Source: Polytrichum commune (lineage: Eukaryota; Streptophyta; Polytrichopsida; Polytrichales; Polytrichaceae). Taken from it: a stretch of 64,000 nucleotides of DNA. Where the stretch lies: NCBI GenBank assembly GCA_950295325.1, contig OX485809.1:41199081-41263080 (forward strand). The letters are read 5' to 3'. Under the pieces are notes generated by a model. That model saw nothing but the letters and a program-made list of their open reading frames with translations. It was not told where the DNA came from and did not search any database. The position numbers and the translations under genes were made by a program. The first letter of the stretch is position 1; each line of letters opens with the position of its first letter. Below are positions 31,101 to 49,620 of this stretch, one piece after another.

Positions 31101-32460
31101 TGATAGCAAGGAGCACATTGTTTGATATCTACATATGTTTTGGGCAGGTCATAAAAGGAAAGCCCATTAGAGGTTGAAGTGTGTGAATTCTTAGTTTTGA
31201 CTCATGCAATAACTTTGCCAAATTTCATAATTCTTGAAAAAAATATCTTATGTCCCTTATCATTTGTGAATTGCAGCAATTGTGTGAGTTAGTGTTTTGT
31301 TCGTCAATTGTCTTCGGAATCGTGGTGAATAAAGTGGACTCCAAGGGGATTAAATCAACAATCCATAAACTTAGATTGAATTCACGGGTAGATCACTTAG
31401 TGCATTTTAAAAACGACGTGCGGCATAATATAGAGAGGATTAAAATCATTTGAAATAAAAATTATAAAGGAATTCCAAATAATGAAGGGGCCATTAAATG
31501 TAGACAATCCCATTATAAGTAAGTTAGATGAACATAAAAGGTGGGCCATTATTTTTTTGTAAAATTAATATAGGGGCCGAAGATAAGGATCCTAGAAGGT
31601 ATGTTCAGTATGGTATGTAAATAGGTTTAGGACTCACGGGGATGGATGATAATTGGAATTTTCGTCTGTCCAAAATTACTTAAAAGGAATATAGAGTACA
31701 AAAAATTGCAGTGACTTGGACAACATAAGTAATGGAAGGGTGCAAACAAATGGGCCATTTTTGAAAGTTATGTAATTATAGGGAGGCTTTAATTCAACCC
31801 TTGAAGGTAAATAGCCCCAAAACAAAAAAAACCCAGCCACACGTGGTGCACAAAAATGCCTTAGAGTGATCTACCCGTGATTGAATTTGCTGAATTTACA
31901 GTTGCAGTGAGATTGTAGGATCTACATGGAGTGATTCCCTTATTGCATGTATGCTATAAAAGTGTTAGTACCCCAACCTGAACAAGTATTGATTAAATAT
32001 TGCAATAGGTCAAGGCGATAGTTTGTTAAGAGATATTCGTGGTTAGAATTACAGTCAAGAGGTAAGGAAAATTTAAGAAAGTACCATGCCAACGTAATAT
32101 GAAGTTAGGCCTGGCCTAAAGGGGATGATAGTATGTCGGAAAATGAAACCAACACATAAGGTGAAAGGGGCCATCATCTCCGGGCTGAATTGAAATTTAT
32201 AGCTTTTATGGATAATTCTACAGTGTACGAGTGTCAGCCCTGAACCTCCACCCTTACGCGTCGTAGTCCATGTAGAGGCCTAAGGTTCACATGTAATTAA
32301 TTGACCTCACTTCTCCCTTGACTTGGACCCAATGCCCAAACAATGTTAATGCCACACACACAATTTTACTCCAAATGAAACGAGGTCACAAGCATTTAGA
32401 AATGCTCTCCTTCCTTATGCATTGGCCATAGCCTCACTTGTGGAGTCTGACATGCCACAT
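28183..32460. other. Noncoding stretch
   Basis: No gene recognised. It includes a CATC microsatellite at 28,355-28,386, a 15-base G run at 29,563-29,577 and a short C run near 30,861. Open frames such as 29,994-30,257 (reverse) are short and motif-free. Confidence 0.5.
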
Positions 32461-37675: not shown

Positions 37676-40600
37676 TAGCCCAATTTATAAACCAATAGAT
37701 AAGGGGGTAGTCACATTAGCCTAGGTAGGGGCATGTGTGGTTGACAGGCGGTTGTATTTAAAGGCGATTACAGAGAATAGCGTTTTTCAACGCTTACATC
37801 TTTTTAACCAACTAAATCAATTACACAAGTGATGGAGGATGTCAAGGACCCTTGTCCTCAACCCATGACGGAGGTCAAGGTAAAGAGGACGAGGGGAATA
37901 TCCTTGAGGGTGTGCGTGGCCAAGGCTGCGGGTTGGACTCTTGAGACAGCCAACACTACCCCAAGCCAATAGGCTAATGTTAATAAAACACAATGATTCA
38001 AATCCACATGCACTCTCTTGAACATGAGGGTCACTTCGCATTTGTTTTTAAGTTCTAGGCAACACATGTGATCCTCAAAGCCATCACCCGGACTAGGACG
38101 CTTAAGGGTGGTGGGTTTGGCCTCACATCTACCATCGGCTGACACCTCTTGACGTCCTGAGGGGACTCGCAGAGGGGAGGCTAGGGTTGCAGCACCGGGA
38201 ATTGCATCCGCCGCCAAACCCGGGTTGCTGATCTCCGGATTCTCGCGGCAAGGAGCCACACTGTAACGGCGAGGGAGGCTGGTTCGACAATACTGGGGCG
38301 CTGACCGCAAGGCTAATACACATGGCAGAAGTCGATCCGATGGTGTCTCAACGCCCTCACGAGGATTGCGCATCCAAACCAACTGCGGCTCCGGCCAAAG
38401 TGTGTGGAGGCAACATCGCATGAGTTGCCTAGGTGCTTCCTAACCCACTTGAGCCAATTTACAATTGTTGTTGTGGAGGGAGATTTAGTTCAAGATATTG
38501 CTGGTGGAGTTTGATGTTAGAATAGGATCAGTGCCGAGTGGGTGCAAGTAGAGAGTGCTTATGGCTCCGACTTGTGGGGATGCCGCGAGCTCTGCCTCAC
38601 ACCTAGCAACATAAGGCTGGTGGGCGGCAAGTCTCTTCGTTGGAGGTAGAAATGAATTAAAATGAGGGCTGAAGGTCGCATATCTCCATTAGATGCCTTG
38701 CGGGGAGTGACGGGTGGTTGTTCGCATGCTGTTGAGAATTAATGGGGAGAGTGTTGAAGGGCGGAGTGGGTTTATGAATGCGTGAATCACTAACAGGAAG
38801 AGAGGGAAGGTGAAAGAGGTAGAATTTATGCACAGTGGGAGGAAGAGTGGTTCCACATTGGTTGGCGAAAGAAAATGGTTGACAACGTGTATCCCGGCAA
38901 CACGATGACCAACCCTTAACGGTGTAGAGTAGCGCAGGGGGATGCGGCAGGCGTCAAAAACGTCGATCACTTGCTGCGCAAGGGCCTCGGACAATTCGAT
39001 GGCGAATGAATGAAGGGGGAGCATGACTGGTGGAAGCAAGGCCTAACCTATAGGGCTCGGGGGGGGGGGGGGGGCAGTGTGTTAAAAAGTTAAGGATATA
39101 GGTGCGAACAACCACTATTTTATAGGGGCGTATTACTTTCAATTCTATTCTTTTTTTCACATGCTATCATTATGTAAATTTCTACTTTGGGTAAATAGAA
39201 AAATGGCTTGCATTACTTATAATTCCAAATTACCTATTATTCCATACCCTATAGTACTTTAAAGATGTCTAGTGCCATTTTTGATACCCTATATTACTCT
39301 TAAGTCCATTTATAATTTTTAGCCCCCATGTTTTTAAAATACCCTATCATTTGTTCGCACGTATATTGCTACTCCAACCAATGACTACCCCCCCCCCCCC
39401 CCGAGTTGTAGGGACGGGGCTCAAGGCGAGCTCTTCAAGGCATGAATGGAAGCCGACCAAGGGCACTAGGCAACGGAGAGGGTAAATGCAAGGTAGCGAT
39501 TTCAGGCTTCCTCACTAGGCAATGGCAGCATAGAGGCAATGGAATGGATGAGAGAATGCTGGGGTGGGAGGACAGGTCGCAGGCTACACACCGAATGAGG
39601 TAGCATGGATATGGTTCATGCAGGGGGGGATAGGTAGTTAGCCTTAGTAAGGAAGGTGAAGTAGTTAGGTCTGGTGTTCTTGGACATTGTAATAAACACA
39701 AGTGTTTGTGAACATTTGAGTGTGTAATAAAAAATGGTGTTATACACACCACTTCTCCCAATTCCTTGATTATGCTTGCACATGTGAATGGTATGCTTGA
39801 ATGTAGCACATGATCCCCAACCCGGACTAGGACGCAATTGAAGGGTGGGGGTGATTGTGGCTCACACTAACCCGTTTTTATAAAGATGTTCATGGACTAT
39901 AGCCTAAAGCTTTTCAAGGTTACAAGTCCTTAGTGTAAATCCAAATCCCCCCCTCCCACATTTTGCAAGCACTATTATTAAGAGTTTTCCCAAAGAATTT
40001 CCCCTCAATCACGGCTAACATAATCCATACTTGTAATGCGAGGTTTTGGCATGTAGATTTTCATTCACTACAAATGTAATGTAGCCTAAAACTGCTCATG
40101 TAAACCTAAAACTTGAACCAATGACACTCTCAACCAATGAGAATACAATGATTGTCATGAGCCAGAGAATTCTATCATGCGAGTGGAGAGAAGGGAAAAC
40201 ATCATGGAAATACATCATAACACCATCATAAGGGTGACATTTACGAAGTCCAAAACATAAAGAACAACAAAAGTGGATTGTACATATAAATCGGGTAGTA
40301 GATTTAAATTGTTGAAGTTTTTGGAAATCAAAAATCAAAAATCAAAAATCAAATCATGAATACAAACTTAAATATTGTCAAACTTAGATGGACTGAGTTC
40401 AAAATAAGCACATACTCTAGTATCGTAATATCTACGAGGTGAAGGTGAAATTGAAGATGAAGTAGATGAAACATTAGCATAAGCTTCAGCTAAAGCCTCA
40501 ACATACACATGGAGGCTATGAGGACTAAAAGAGGGGCTTCTCAATAATCCACGGTGCCAATAAAAGGACGAGGTTTGTATTGGCGATGGATTCATCCAAC

Positions 40601-40710
40601 TGCAAACAACAAACCATGTATTAGAATATGTAATAACAAATTAAAATACAAAATCTAGAATTTGCAATTGAAGTTGTTGAGAAGAAAACAAGGAAAAAAA
40701 CTTACTCACA
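37676..40710. other. Noncoding stretch
   Basis: No supported gene. It holds a 16-base G run at 39,059-39,074 and a 15-base C run at 39,388-39,402. The 187-codon reverse frame at 37,858-38,421 lacks motifs and is not called. Confidence 0.5.
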
Positions 40711-43700
40711 TCAGTTAAGTAATGCGGCGTTTTCCATTGGAGTATCATCATCAAAGTCCATACCATCGCATGAGGTATCAGTTATAGGTGTTTGAAGAGG
40801 CTTTAGTACCTCATCAAAGAGTTCGGCATCACATTCTAATGCTAGAATATAACGATTGGATGAATGAGCCGCTCTAATAAAAAGAACATGGATGAAGCAC
40901 AATATTAATTAGGAAAATACGAACATTGAAGTATAAATTAAAAAACATATAAACTAATAATTGGATATTATAAAATACAATACTTGTAGAAGGTATCATG
41001 TCTGCCACAATACCACCTACAGGACTCAAACCATGAACAAATAACTTCATCAAAACTTCAAACTTCTCCTTAGCACCCCTCCATGGTTTGCCATTTCTTT
41101 GTCTACATAATTGAATTTCCGTCATAATAGAGTTGAAGAGAACGTCATTTGTGGCTAAATTGACCTCTGAAATTGAAGGATACATGTTGATCAGAAGTTC
41201 TTAAGGTTGCCTCGCAACGGGAAATGAGAATTATCGAACCAATAAAAAAGCCTTGAACTTCAAAGTGTGAAAGTCAAAATAAAAATAAAATTAAAAAATA
41301 CATACCATATAAAAAAAAATTCAAATGTGAAGCAATCCAAATGAAATGTCATAATTACTACTTACATTTTTGGACGGATTCATAGGATTTTCCAAGTGCA
41401 AGCAATTAATGATAGTCCACTCATCCTTGATCTTGAACATGTAGTTCTTGAAGAATCCTGCCACCTCTCTCTTCATTACAAAACTGTCAGGATAAAACAA
41501 AAAGAATGTTATATCATCATGAAGATAAATAAGAGCAAACGTCATTAATATGTTGAGAAAACTTGGAATGTTGGCATTCCAAGGGGAAAATTTGAGATGG
41601 CGGATCCGAGAAACATGGAACCCGAAGACCATATGGGTAATCCGCAATAATGAGGTCCACAACATGTTTATTTTGCAGTTCGCCATCGGAAAAAAATTGT
41701 CTACCTTTACCAACCTACAAAGATAAAATACAAATATTACAATTTATGAATGAATATGACAATTCAAAGAAAAAAATGAAATACGTGATGAAATATGATT
41801 GAAACTTTATAAAACATGAAATAAATTAAAAATTGTAAAATAAAATGAACTCACCTTTGATAGAATAACCACAATGTTGTCATATGGTGCACGAAATATA
41901 CATGTTTGTTTTTTATCCTCAATAATCCTCACAAAAAAATCATTCAAGATTAAATCCGAAGATGTATAATTTACAGGTAAAGGAGACAACATATCCATTA
42001 TAACTCTAAGCTTGGGAGGCATATGGAAGGTAGGAGAAGGGGTTGTATTCTGCCGCTTTCAAGTATGGAACATTGCCTTTAGATTTGAAGAAGAAGGTTT
42101 AGTAACTACAAGGTTGTTGAGACTGCTTTGAATTGAAGCATCGTCATCGCTATCATGAATTAGGAGAATTGGTCTTTTAGGCTTAGACTTTTTTTTGGCA
42201 TTTTGGCTACATCCTCATCTATTATGGAGGAAGCAATTTTAATTGCATCCTTCAAGGCGGGTTGAATAGAATCTCGAAGGGCAATATAAAAAATGGGAGG
42301 TGTTTTAAGAATACAATCCAAATACCACCCACATTTTTCAAAATGCATAGGATCCCAAGATTTCATGATCCCTTTTGTGAACATGCATTCTTCACCTTCG
42401 ATATCCAAATAGTTAGCAAAAAAAGTGAGAGATTTATAAATGGCTTTAGCAAGAAATAAGACATATTTGAAGTACCTATAAAACATCCTTCGCATGGGCG
42501 GATTGAAATTAAATTGTTTGTCAATGTTATGGTTTTACCGTTTTTGTGAACTCCCTTATCTACACCGAATTCACGAAAAAATGGAGTATCCTACAATGAT
42601 ATGCGCATTGTCTCCACATAAAAAAAAATAATGGACAAAAGATCCATACCATCTGGAAAATAATAGATGGACACATGCATATCAGCCACAGTAGCCTCAA
42701 AGAGCTTCTCGGTCTCAATAGCCAACTACCAAATATAAAATAAACATTAGAAGAATTCAATGATTGAAAAAATATAAAAAAATATAAAAAACATAGATAA
42801 AAATTTAATGAACCAGAAATAATAGAAGGAAAAAAATTTCACATGAGCCCACCAAGTAGTTTTATGAAACCACTTAGGAAACTCTATACTATTGGATTTT
42901 GGTTTCGGAAACTTGAGAGCCTCACAAAGAACAAGTGAACTATTCTACCTCTCAGGCCACTTAATCTTCATAAAAATGTCCATTGCCGAAGTTGCTAACA
43001 TCCAAAGTTTTTCTTGAGTCATGTCAAGATTCTCATCGTGAGTTTCATAATGGGACTTGACCTGCTCTAAAGACATAAGAATTTGTCTAGGATCTGCAAT
43101 GGGAAGTTGGTTCTTCAGTTCCGAATGGAAAGTCAATCTCACCCTCTTAACAACTTAAAAAACCCATTTATCAATTGCACTTGAACTCCAATGTGCATGA
43201 TCAAGGTATTTTTTATAAAATTTCTTTTGAACAGTAGCAGCAGTATCTTCCAACTTATGCTGCACCAAGGAAAAAACACATAAGAATATGATAAATCACA
43301 CATAATAAAAATAAGATGCAATAAAAAAATGCGTGAGAAATTAATACTTTAGAAAAAATAACCTGGTATAGAAATCCATTAAGAGCCTCAACAGTAAAAG
43401 TGAACCAAATTCTATGTTTGGATTTTTGTTTGGCATCAGCAACAGTAAGATCTTCTTTGCAAAATAATTTTTTTAAAATATGAAAGTGGTTGTCCAACAA
43501 TGCTTTGAATGCGGAAAAACTTCTAAACAAGATTTATAGAAACATGGAATTTTTGGTTACTCCTGAAAAAATAAAACAACCAATGATAAACCAAGAAAAT
43601 ATATATATATATTAAAAAAACTTAAAAAAAACTAAATAAAAAAAGAAGAATGAAGGAATTACCAATTGATTTCATATAAAGCTGCCAACATGGTTGCATT

Positions 43701-44168
43701 ATCTTCCTTGACGTCCAAAATAATAATTTCAACAACATAATGCCAAACAAGATCATGTGTACGATCTCGATTAATAATGGGCAACCATGCTTGCTAATGG
43801 TGGTTTCCGTCCCACACCATGAACATTTTGCCAAAAAAAACTTTGAGGTCCTCATCAGTTTGCAATATTTTTTGAAAGGCATCATTTGTCCGCACCCAGT
43901 TCTCACTCCTTGATTCAATGATACTATCAATAACATTTATTGTTTTCTCCTCATTGTTTTTCAAGGCCACGTAAAAAACCCCATTGCCCTCCATATAACC
44001 ACAAGCAACAAAATATGCAGTCAAGTTCATAATGTCATTTTTCAAAAATGACCTAACAACAAGCAATACAACCATTCGAGATAGTGGAATGTTGAATTTT
44101 ATTGATAGTTTTATTCTTAAAAGATGCATGCAATTGCAACTCCAATTAATCTTCAGAAAGAAGTACAA
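40711..44168 (-). pseudogene. Decayed ParB-like/N4-N6 DNA methyltransferase fusion
   Basis: Remnant exons run right to left with plausible GT-AG joins. At 44,168-43,670 the frame reads KMFMVWDGNH, a TAG at 43,794-43,796, then QAWLPIINRDR; the V-x-DGNHR-like motif resembles the ParB/Srx fold. Exons at 43,530-42,850 (stops near 43,160 and 42,945) and 42,725-42,165 follow without recognised motifs. At 41,675-41,390 comes VVDLIIADYPYGL, a degraded DPPY catalytic motif (encoded by 41,631-41,642), then a frameshift and DDITFFLFYPDSFVMKREV. At 41,080-40,985 comes GGIVADMIPST, the weakened SAM-binding loop, then NRYILALECDAELFDEVLKPL and a stop at 40,711. DPPY before the SAM loop is the beta-class order of amino-DNA methyltransferases. 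Family members transfer methyl from SAM to DNA amines. This copy is dead. Methyltransferase call fairly firm; ParB call moderate. Confidence 0.65.
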
Positions 44169-46017
44169 CTTCCATATCTAAAGCACAAAAAATATCACCT
44201 ATATGAAAGACAAAAACAAATTAATAAGAATATATACATATGAAAGAAATCACATATGCAAACTAAAATAAAATACAAAATATGAAAAATACAAATTTAA
44301 AAAAAAATGAGAGTATACATAAGGAAAAAACCACATATGCATAAGAATTCAAAACCCTTGTTGAAGGACCAAGAATTGTGAAAATAGGTGTATACATGAA
44401 AAAATAAATACATATACCATAAAATTTGAGATGCAACCAAGGGTGGCCGTTAACTGCTACACTTTTAGATGGAACGGTCATAATAAACATATGTATATAT
44501 GTAATTTTATTTCAAAAAAATTATGTTGTTAAATGAAGACAGAAATCCAAGAAGGGGTGGTCGTTAACGGCTGCCCTAAACTAGAACACATAAGTTGGCA
44601 TTATAGAAAAGTTGGCCGTTAACGACTACCCATTTGGAAGAGAAATGCACCTTGATTTGAATCGCTTTCCGGAGTTGCAGCTTCTTGGTCGCTCTTGTTT
44701 GTTGTATCTATGTGCCCACGTCGCCGCCTGGAACCCGTAGCAATATCTGCTTCCTCCATGTTGTTCGCTTTTGCTTCTTGTGTATGTTGTTGCCGCCGCA
44801 CTTGGAAAGAGGATGTCTGAAGACAATATTAAGATTACAGCCTCAAGAAATTATTGTAAGTCGGACTCCAAAAAAAATTGGTAGATTTCACTCCATAGAA
44901 TCTTTGCTATAACTTTCTCAAATCTTCTAATTTATTTCCAAAAACAATCAAGTGAATATATTATATTCTTTCTATTCATTCCAAATTTTTTCAGAATTGT
45001 TGGAGATTATGTCAATTTTACATAAATCGTAAAAGTCTACTAAAATTAATATGGTTAGATTTTCTGCATAAAATCTTCAATTTTTGACGATATTTGAAGA
45101 TTCTAAGATACTCTAATTATCTTTTTGGCTCTAAAACATGAAAAACATAATCATTTTGTTCATGTTATATACCGTTGGAATTGTATTCTCGGCATGTACA
45201 ATATAGTATACATTAGATACCTCCAAATTTATTTTCATTTTAAAGTTATTTTCTTATCATTTCGTTCGTACAACCTACCTCCATCTCCGCCTCAAATGGT
45301 TGTTGTTGTTCTTCGTATTGTGTGGCTTGCTCTCCGTCAATGTCTTTTGTCATAATCTTCCTCCTCTTTATCGTCCTCATTGCATTCAGAGACGATATGT
45401 GGTTGAGCTTCACATGTAGGAGTTTGATGTTCGAAGACATCTTTCGTTATCATTTAGCATGCCACAATATCTTCGTACGTCGAATTTCTTATTGTACTTG
45501 ATAAGTCCACTCCTATCATTCAAGGAATACGTCTATTCATTCTAGCCCTTAACAATTGTCTCTTACTTGAAAAATAAAAACTATTTTTTTTCCTATTTTT
45601 TTTCCTACCCTCCACTGGAATGACCACTGCTAACATGAACAAATGACGTTCTTTTGCATCTAAACACATTCAGCTTCCCTAAGCACTACATTCTCCACCC
45701 TCAACAACATGCATTTCATGGATGTTAATCATGATTAGGCCTCTAAATCTATGAACTCCAAACGGAAGTCATGGTCTCAACATAGATAGGGAGGCTTCGT
45801 GGGAATGATGGACTTGCTACAAATTTTGGTTCTTCAAAAAAAGGTCGCCAACGTCACATTGCTAGTACATGACAACATAGATGTGTTAATATCCATAATA
45901 ATCCAACTAAATATATATACAATATAATGCAAGTAAAAATTATACAATCAACCATACGAACAAGATAAAAAAACAAAACTTATTCACAAAATAGATTGAT
46001 TTCCTAGCGATTAACAA
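44169..46017. other. Region between the two methyltransferase relics
   Basis: Reverse frames at 44,801-44,619 (charged, glutamine- and serine-rich) and 45,440-45,250 (ending in GAG before a GTAGGT donor-like site) could be upstream exons of the 40,711-44,168 relic, but this is not demonstrated. Three short related motifs of the form GG(C/T)CGTTAAC occur near 44,446, 44,559 and 44,616. Confidence 0.35.
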
Positions 46018-46345
46018 TTGGAAAATCATCCGAGTCTTCAAAATTGATATCTTTGCCAATAGGTAAAGGAGATTGTAAAATCAAAGGCTTCAAGATGGAA
46101 TCAGAAACATCTTTATCACCTTCCTATGCCAAGAGGTAACGCTTCAAAGAAATAATAAATGATTATCAAAATATCAATAAATGATAACATGTTAGTTTGT
46201 GAAGAATACATAACAAAATGATTTCAAAGCAAAAACAAATTGTTTTATACATGTGCTAGCAGTGACGTCTTCAACAATGCCTTCGGATTTTGAAAAAACA
46301 TCAATCAAACATTGGAAGAACAATGGATGTTTTTCTCGCGTGCCG
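46018..46345 (-). pseudogene. Second ParB/methyltransferase-family relic, C-terminal end
   Basis: On the reverse strand, 46,340-46,256 reads REKHPLFFQCLIDVFSKSEG then IVEDVTAST and a GTATAA donor-like site. At 46,148-46,018 it reads KRYLLA, a TAG, EGDKDVSDSILKPL, then an acidic tail ending FPIVNR and a stop. These match, in order, the 41,080-40,711 part of the first relic (GGIVADMIPST; RYILALECDAELFDEVLKPL; acidic tail). The stop replaces a residue that is leucine in the first copy. The catalytic DPPY exon is not seen. The family's SAM loop therefore looks like D-x-TAST rather than the usual F-x-G-x-G. Confidence 0.65.
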
Positions 46346-46515: not shown

Positions 46516-47049
46516 TATGACTGTAATTGAGATAACTGTGATTACATTGGCCAAGACCAAGTAAAAGACTATTGTCGAACAATGTAACTAAAATTATATT
46601 TAATTAAAGAGCATTGAATGACTGCACGGAGATTTCAAATTACACTAAAAATGATTAATTAATACAAAACCATTGACTACTCCAAAGTGCCCTTGGCTTT
46701 GGTAAAGAGACAAAAATGGGTTACTCGTGCAAGATAATTAACTATGGTTGTGCCTATGATTGTGCACCGCATTTGGTCTAATTAAAATGAACTCACTGCC
46801 AGACTATTGTTTGGGTAATTAGAGTGAGGTGAGTGACCGTCACAATTGCGTGTATTGGCATGGAGAGATTTCTAAATTTCTATCCCCCATTCTTTAACCA
46901 ATTGTCAATCTAAATCTAAACTAAAGTGAAATAACCTTATGTTTTCCCTAATAAACCTTATATGAGACACCTTGATGATACACCAATCACCTTTTAAGTC
47001 TTCCCTGAGTGTTTTCATGGGTTTGTTTGTAACCAAAATCTAAACTCCA
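46516..47049 (-). repeat. Inverted repeat arm, left
   Basis: The reverse complement begins TGGAGTTTAGATTTTGGTTA, then ACAAACAAACCC, and aligns with 49,071-49,620. Shared landmarks include GGAAGACTTAAAAGGTGATT, CAATAGTCTGGCAGTGAGTT, CATTTTAATT, GTAACCCATTTTTGTCTCTT and TTTACC. The TG start could be an LTR boundary. Confidence 0.8.
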
Positions 47050-49070: not shown

Positions 49071-49620
49071 TGTAGTTAGCTTTTTAGTTACAAACAAAAC
49101 CCAGGGAAACAATCAGGGAAGACTTAAAAGGTGATTCATACAACATCTAGGTGTCTTAGATAAGAATTATTAAGGAAAACACAGGGTTAATTCACTTTAA
49201 TTAGGATAAGGACTGACAATTGGCTTATGGGTAAGGGGTAAAAACTTCTAAAAACCACTCCATGTCAGTACATGCAAATGTGACAGTCTCACACCTCACA
49301 CTAATTTCCCAAGCAATAGTCTGGCAGTGAGTTCATTTTAATTGGACCAAGCATAGGCACAGCCATAGTCAATGGTCTTGCAATAGTAACCCATTTTTGT
49401 CTCTTTACCGAAGTCAAGGGCCCTTCGGTGTAGTCCATAGTCTTTCATTTTTTAACTTCATTTTAATGTAACTGGAAAAGTCAGTGCAGTAATCCTTTCA
49501 GGATAACCAATCTTCTTTCATTAAATCCAAGTTTAATTATGCAGTCCGACAATTGTCTTTTACCTGGTAGCGGCCACGACAATCTCAATCTCTTTCCTCA
49601 AGGCAATGAGTCCAAAACCA
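49071..49620 (+). repeat. Inverted repeat arm, right
   Basis: It starts TGTAGTTAGCTTTTTAGTTA, then ACAAACAAAACCC, and aligns in opposite orientation with the arm at 46,516-47,049. Sequence beyond 49,620 is no longer shared with the left side. Confidence 0.8.

Follow-up and report, generated by a model that had tools for sequence, protein, structure and literature searches.

The window analysed here is a stretch of 64 kb from contig C7 of the Polytrichum commune genome (408 Mb in 64 contigs, of which C1 to C7 measure 42–78 Mb). On its minus strand, around positions 40,711–44,198, lies a decayed spliced gene. We consider it probable that this relic belongs to a worn copy of a high-copy Mutator-like DNA transposon, whose accessory protein would be built on a methyltransferase fold that is itself probably non-methylating.

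The gene relic and its exons

A preliminary description of the region had read it as a relic of a spliced nuclear gene, in which a ParB-like motif is joined to a bacterial-type amino-methyltransferase. The four motifs that it quoted, VWDGNH (43817–43800), IIADYPYG (ending at 41628), GGIVADMIPST (ending at 40985) and ALECD (40842–40828), are all present on the minus strand and follow one another in the order given. The exon blocks are split by candidate introns that start with GT and end with AG, and these introns are AT-rich, with a GC content of 0.17–0.29 compared with 0.31–0.41 in the exons, as calculated with approximate exon boundaries that are off by 1–2 bases. Over 40366–44206 of the minus strand, stop-free stretches of at least 60 codons add up to 1368 codons, against a mean of 374 and a maximum of 882 codons in 1000 dinucleotide shuffles scored by the same measure. 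Several stops and frame shifts interrupt the gene (Table 1), and both the splicing and the decay that had been proposed are borne out. It starts upstream of 44168 and, judging from frame and splice sites, probably continues past the TGA of the third methyltransferase exon into a further 3′ exon. The linker encoded by the long exon contains a basic stretch and the segment ILLIHDSDDD, which resemble a nuclear signal and a SUMO-interaction motif, respectively, by eye only.

Taken by itself, the window relic gives a single Pfam match, to PF01555 (E 0.045, 14.1 bits), beginning at the motif IV region; a shorter piece reaches E 0.019 (15.3 bits), compared with 0.06 for the best of nine decoys. This match is weak. 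The N-terminal part of the relic has no Pfam match, the relic by itself matches nothing in the PDB, and Rfam gives no match at the gathering threshold. Five YcgN-type NCBIfam models were reported on the N-terminal part (E 0.00036–0.09) and were taken as chance, the matches reaching at most 20 bits against cut-offs of 167–286 with a query stretch that is joined across a frame change. The folded N-terminal exon of the window has a mean predicted local distance difference test score (pLDDT) of 46, and was not used.

Table 1. Parts of the gene relic and of the transposon copy that holds it, in window positions
Feature	Position	Strand	Remarks
Decayed transposon copy	40209..45976	-	Right end missing at 40209; left limit provisional, at or beyond 45976 (46261 or 46427 in two copies)
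Upstream tandem-repeat remnant	44354..44678	-	44354-44474 gives several spaced matches in other copies
Exon with VWDGNH segment	43663..44198	-	In-frame TAG 43796-43794; frame change near 44060
Exon	43363..43562	-	Frame shift close to exon start
Middle-region exon	42843..43259	-	Two in-frame stops
Long exon, middle region and linker	41855..42725	-	
Methyltransferase exon 1, motif IV region (DYPYG)	41366..41714	-	Frame shift after motif
DYPYG motif	41628..41642	-	Counterpart is [DE]YPDG in 23 of 27 copies read
Methyltransferase exon 2, WRGAKEK ... GGIVADMIPST (S-adenosylmethionine loop)	40984..41166	-	Loop degenerate in window
Methyltransferase exon 3, RYILALECD	40706..40871	-	In-frame TGA 40713-40711
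Probable last exon	40369..40599	-	Donor 40705, acceptor 40600; placed from frame and splice sites

Dispersed copies of a two-gene element

The exons of the relic recur in many copies in the genome. The N-terminal exon with VWDGNH has at least 150 matches (150 scored of 1054 candidates), the methyltransferase exons at least 198 (150 of 1284 candidates scored, often with two rows per copy), and the core of a transposase-like gene at least 150 (150 scored of 1761), all three counts being lower bounds. To assess the arrangement, rows were taken from the match lists, 64 for N-terminal exons free of stops and 148 for the methyltransferase. Of the 64, 43 are followed by a methyltransferase match on their own strand at a distance of up to 12 kb, while no pair within this distance has any other arrangement; random placement (500 trials) gave a mean of 0.07 pairs and at most 2. 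When the best 20 of the 150 transposase rows (93–100% identity) were compared with 54 chosen N-terminal exon rows, 15 of the 20 had an N-terminal exon in head-to-head orientation no more than 20 kb away. The relic is thus one of many dispersed copies of a repeated, mobile sequence in which a transposase gene stands head to head with a spliced accessory gene. A single acquired gene is ruled out by the many dispersed copies, and the second option of the preliminary description, a mobile-element protein, agrees with the many copies beside a transposase-like gene.

Shortened forms are common among the copies. Deletion forms that join the equivalents of positions 40349 and 42620, with loss of the methyltransferase exons, make up 14 of 30 N-terminal loci. 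In 7 of the 30 the later part of the transposase (residue 782 onward) stands upstream, facing away, and these are therefore shortened forms as well. A 1905-aa open frame in the match list was rejected as an artefact of N runs. Such runs beside the gene at loci L158 (1–1858) and L160 (1–3783), which are either gaps of the assembly or stretches that were withheld, produce false long open frames in the match lists.

Four copies (L158, L159, L160 and L162) that are 95–98% identical over the gene share one sharp right end, beyond which the flanks are unrelated. A pattern of 17 bases at this end, allowing up to two mismatches, occurs 50 times in the genome, compared with 9 times for the backward-read control. 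Each of the 13 exact matches lies downstream of a family exon that is on its own strand, at 1.8–8.9 kb from an N-terminal exon in 12 cases and at 1.5 kb from a methyltransferase row in the remaining one. In the subfamily to which the window copy belongs, L148 and L152 end in a related terminus. The left end of the L162 copy was found by searching for the letters of its right flank, and TTTAGGACT stands directly outside both ends as a 9-bp target duplication. Over 47 bp, the left end shows a 93.6% match to the right end in inverted orientation. The whole copy spans 14.0 kb, from about C1:10124645 to 10138675. Its second gene, on the opposite strand and head to head with the spliced gene, has open stretches of 890, 234 and 262 aa; by eye, the layout of the protein is of the DDE type (VYDATF ... 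MADSAQANW ... CLFHW), and the segment CTCHNF...CKHLYYV is SWIM-like. Mutator-like elements are described as having 8–11-bp duplications and inverted ends, together with a transposase that contains a zinc finger, and several of them carry extra genes (PMC6446971); a duplication of this length together with terminal inverted repeats is found in one copy here. These features point to a Mutator-like superfamily.

The copy of the element in the window itself is decayed; its right end is missing, and a search of the window for the transposase gene gave no match. On the right side, homology ends at 40208/40209, and the shared sequence that runs on in all 30 copies examined is absent from the window. 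On the left side (query, window 46560–45200), 18 rows start at query positions 577–648, one at 300 and one at 134, and the shared sequence accordingly extends to about 45976 in most of the 18 rows, with two copies reaching 46261 and 46427. Position 45326 was considered as the left break of the window copy and rejected; it corresponds to the junction of deletion forms, and the shared sequence extends further. A stop at this point was seen in nine loci, in seven of which the transposase-like sequence begins there. The window copy is about 10% diverged from its subfamily, of which the main members differ by 2–4% and a few by up to 10%. Of the 64 pairs of inverted repeats that surround the relic, the 25 longest were considered, and none was taken as element ends.

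Two neighbouring segments deserve mention at this side of the relic. Within window 45761–46344 (minus strand), an exon-like part at 46010–46150 resembles the C-terminal exon (48% over 29 aa, E 0.019). The segment has matches elsewhere in the genome, among them C1:16419712, which is located some 3 kb downstream from an N-terminal exon of just 38% identity, and it may therefore derive from another subfamily as a fragment. Two other copies match across the junction. Further out, 46548–47038 and 49082–49576 form inverted arms of about 500 bp, 75% identical and 2 kb apart, which are probably another DNA element adjoining the relic.

A methyltransferase fold with an altered motif IV

For the C-terminal part (METHYLTRANSFERASE), a profile of four relatives retrieved 11 PDB sequences at E values up to 10, and 10 of these are methyltransferases. 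The best match is the adenine methylase DpnA (E 0.0013 for the whole sequence); RsrI and CcrM were also matched, and all three we take to be beta-class amino-methyltransferases. Alignment with hhalign to the methyltransferase part of phage proteins, the figures being those of one single pair, gave 86.5% and E 4.6e-6 over the S-adenosylmethionine (SAM) region, compared with 1.2% for the reversed alignment. Locus L097 matches PF01555 with E 1.1e-7 and 32.4 bits, above the cut-off of 26.7, and is linked to L161, a copy of the [DE]YPDG type, by 32% identity and common motifs. The motif IV region precedes motif I, which is the beta-class order. We conclude from these comparisons that the C-terminal half of the protein is a homologue of beta-class amino-methyltransferases encoded by a spliced nuclear gene, as had been proposed.

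The catalytic motif is a different matter. A DPPY motif had been described, but the window reads DYPYG, and a (D/N/S)PP(Y/F/W) motif occurs in none of the 27 copies that could be read. Motif IV is [DE]YPDG in 23 of these copies, DYPYG in two (one of which is the window copy), DIPYG in one and DIPDG in one; the first proline and the aromatic residue are replaced in the 23. Five of the 30 methyltransferase loci (L135, L147, L148, L149 and L152) gave no row under the motif IV pattern, although L147 and L149 read DYPDG in a separate comparison. The SAM loop reads DLTAGTG, DLFVGTG or DLSVGTG in some copies and DMTASTG or DLTASTG in others. In the rotifer enzyme N4CMT, a change of SPPY to APPA is reported to have abolished methylation (PMC8885841). 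Because motif IV is altered, and given this result for N4CMT, methylation by most members of the family is unlikely. It might nevertheless be argued that the accessory protein methylates its own element through an unusual [DE]YPDG or DIPYG site, marking it or shielding it from silencing. The SAM loops kept in some subfamilies (DLTAGTG, DLFVGTG), the constraint on the motif IV exon between subfamilies, and the one lineage that combines DIPYG with a PF01555 score above the cut-off would all fit such an activity. With the first proline and the aromatic residue replaced in 23 of the 27 copies read, and with N4CMT inactive once the serine and tyrosine of SPPY are replaced, we regard it as rather unlikely.

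Two near-identical open frames of 577 aa, L096 (C4:44111740) and L097 (C1:9662150), belong to a distant methyltransferase branch. They have DIPDG and DIPYG together with a good SAM loop, and are candidates for a lineage that keeps more of the active site. PF01555 also scores above the cut-off in long open frames at C10:4592–5212 (L093), C10:15117–15353 (L095) and C12:29682–30278 (L094). Contigs C10 and C12 are small (47 and 61 kb), and these three loci may stem from bacteria or another foreign source whose DNA is present in the assembly.

Between subfamilies, the proportion of differing synonymous sites (pS) is 0.69–0.84, i.e., near saturation, compared with 0.21–0.40 for nonsynonymous sites (pN), and the N-terminal and motif IV exons behave alike; a ratio is not computable where pS exceeds 0.75. 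The proteins are still 40–62% identical despite the near-saturated synonymous sites. These comparisons of coding sequence show that the accessory protein is under constraint between subfamilies. This bears on the proposal that the gene is a captured host gene, carried as passenger cargo without a role for the element. Mutator-like elements are described as tending to acquire host gene fragments (PMC6446971), and both the 14 deletion forms devoid of methyltransferase exons and the close pairs discussed below, which lack clear constraint, could be read in the same direction. Against it speak the recurring gene order and orientation, the related termini of two subfamilies, and proteins that remain so similar at near-saturated synonymous distances, and this explanation is very unlikely.

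The N-terminal domain gives no comparable match. Intact N-terminal exons mostly read VWDGNHRLQAW, and the resemblance to the phage sequence VDGHLRLKAA, in a G-[HN]-x-R..A box, is seen by eye only. The Pfam domain ParB_N (PF02195) was found neither in the window pieces nor in any of five intact exons. Profile–profile comparison with ParB by hhalign gave 1.0%, and after an insert was cut from the N-terminal exon 1.3%, which is no better than control cuts (0.2–1.4%). A PDB search with an N-terminal profile returned eight weak matches with no ParB chain among them. Phage proteins in which ParB_N is followed by PF01555 do exist (L002, and L003 with ParB_N just below the cut-off; L005 has PF01555 only), and a profile of whole phage ParB-methyltransferase proteins did not match the relic. 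The ParB part of the preliminary description is not supported by these searches, and the label ParB-like is best given up until a structure can be consulted.

These results also bear on whether a bacterial or phage ParB-methyltransferase gene was acquired by the plant nucleus and serves as a host N4-cytosine or N6-adenine DNA methyltransferase. Such an origin has precedents, since Marchantia and bdelloid rotifers are reported to use acquired N4 methylases (PMC8566409, PMC8885841). The methyltransferase homology and beta-class order, both of which are real, and the existence of phage proteins with ParB_N ahead of PF01555 speak for it as well. It is difficult to reconcile with many dispersed copies next to a transposase-like gene, with the lack of (D/N/S)PP(Y/F/W) in every copy read, and with a ParB assignment that neither domain profiles nor the whole phage model support. 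We therefore judge a host enzyme to be very unlikely. Of the two alternatives offered earlier, an acquired 4-methylcytosine (4mC) or 6-methyladenine (6mA) enzyme or a mobile-element protein, the latter is supported and an active enzyme is the less likely reading.

Possible role of the accessory protein

In a complete element, the transposase gene and the spliced accessory gene stand head to head and are separated by a tandem-repeat array. The protein encoded by the accessory gene comprises an N-terminal domain with DGNHR..AW, a long middle region and linker, and a C-terminal beta-class amino-methyltransferase fold, in which the SAM loop is kept or nearly kept in many copies but motif IV has become [DE]YPDG. 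We predict that this protein enters the nucleus and recognises the element's own repeats or termini, and that the methyltransferase fold is used for binding of DNA or SAM instead of methylation. Its likeliest role would be to counter host silencing or to assist transposition, as VANC and mudrB do in other Mutator-like elements.

The tandem arrays are relevant in this respect. In the window's wider subfamily they are found upstream of the gene in 28 of 29 loci, mostly with units of 105 or 210 bp; no array is present in L104, and none is left in the window. The L162 copy has a 117-bp array of 4.2 units between the two genes. Among nine longer stretches, L158, L159 and L166 show no array of 40 bp or more, L158 having N upstream and L159 being cut. 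VANC proteins are reported to bind short motifs that have accumulated in tandem repeats of the non-coding regions of VANDAL elements, and to remove methylation (PMC5735166). Because tandem repeats occur upstream of the accessory gene, and VANC binds motifs in the tandem repeats of VANDALs, an anti-silencing or helper role is, by analogy, the most likely one.

Like the Arabidopsis VANDALs, which encode the transposase VANA and the protein VANC (PMC5735166), the element described here is a DNA transposon with a transposase and an accessory gene. VANC carries the domains DUF1985 and DUF287 (PMC5735166), neither of which appears in Pfam scans of the accessory-gene pieces, whereas the accessory protein here has a methyltransferase fold. 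The likeness to VANC is consequently an analogy and not a demonstrated relation. Maize MuDR, with mudrA and mudrB (PMC6446971), likewise combines a transposase with an extra protein, and is likened here by gene layout alone.

As for the enzymes of the PF01555 type, DpnA, RsrI and CcrM share with the accessory protein a motif IV region that precedes the SAM loop, and profile matches were obtained to all three, but the accessory protein differs in its replaced catalytic motif, its long N-terminal and middle regions, and its spliced gene. The phage ParB_N–PF01555 proteins also have a G-[HN]-x-R..A-like box in an N-terminal domain ahead of a beta-class methyltransferase; no statistical link connects the N-terminal parts. 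The bdelloid N4CMT and the N4 methyltransferases of Marchantia (PMC8885841, PMC8566409) are, like this protein, eukaryotic and of bacterial amino-methyltransferase origin. Those are described as active host enzymes, with SPPY in N4CMT, while the protein here is transposon-borne and has [DE]YPDG.

Anti-silencing or helper proteins encoded by transposons themselves are known in a few plant families, and the present high-copy element couples a transposase-like gene with a methyltransferase-fold protein that is conserved between subfamilies and devoid of the catalytic signature. Should this be confirmed, it would illustrate the conversion of an enzyme that modifies DNA into a means by which a selfish element reads DNA, and would call for caution before such genes are taken to indicate 4mC or 6mA in plants. 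A more specific proposal, which we put forward tentatively, is that a plant Mutator-like group has turned an amino-methyltransferase of phage or bacterial type into a non-methylating, sequence-specific anti-silencing factor that binds the tandem repeats of its own element, an independent and differently built counterpart of VANC. This architecture was not found among the openly licensed papers listed, as judged by titles and the openings of abstracts.

Several observations weigh against the interpretation as a Mutator-like transposon with a non-methylating accessory protein. The superfamily assignment rests on the ends, the target duplication and motifs seen by eye, because Pfam recognised no transposase piece, with no Mutator or SWIM model among its matches. 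L162 is the only copy in which the two ends and the duplication were read; its left end was not found with the 17-base right-end pattern, and its inverted match begins 8 bases in from the end. The profile evidence for the methyltransferase leans on one lineage, that of L097; L161 by itself reaches E 0.2 with PF01555 (12 bits, below the cut-off), and the best single stretch of the DpnA match has E 0.075. In some copies, such as L097 with DIPYG, more of the catalytic motif is retained, so that a methylating lineage may exist. Constraint is not clearly seen in close pairs, with ratios of 0.42 (L161–L164) and 0.78 (L099–L107), and pS 0 with pN 0.03 for L133–L130, all with few changes. No relative was found outside this genome among the phages, viral contigs and bacterial genomes searched; a phage search with the methyltransferase part gave two weak matches (E 10), and PHROGs gave weak matches only. 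Finally, we infer the mechanism and the superfamily, and the silencing or helper role is drawn from analogy.

Elsewhere in the window, 31382–31880 is a short repeat that is also present in L137 (83%), L162 (85%) and L167 (97% over 252 bp), and is possibly a small non-autonomous element.

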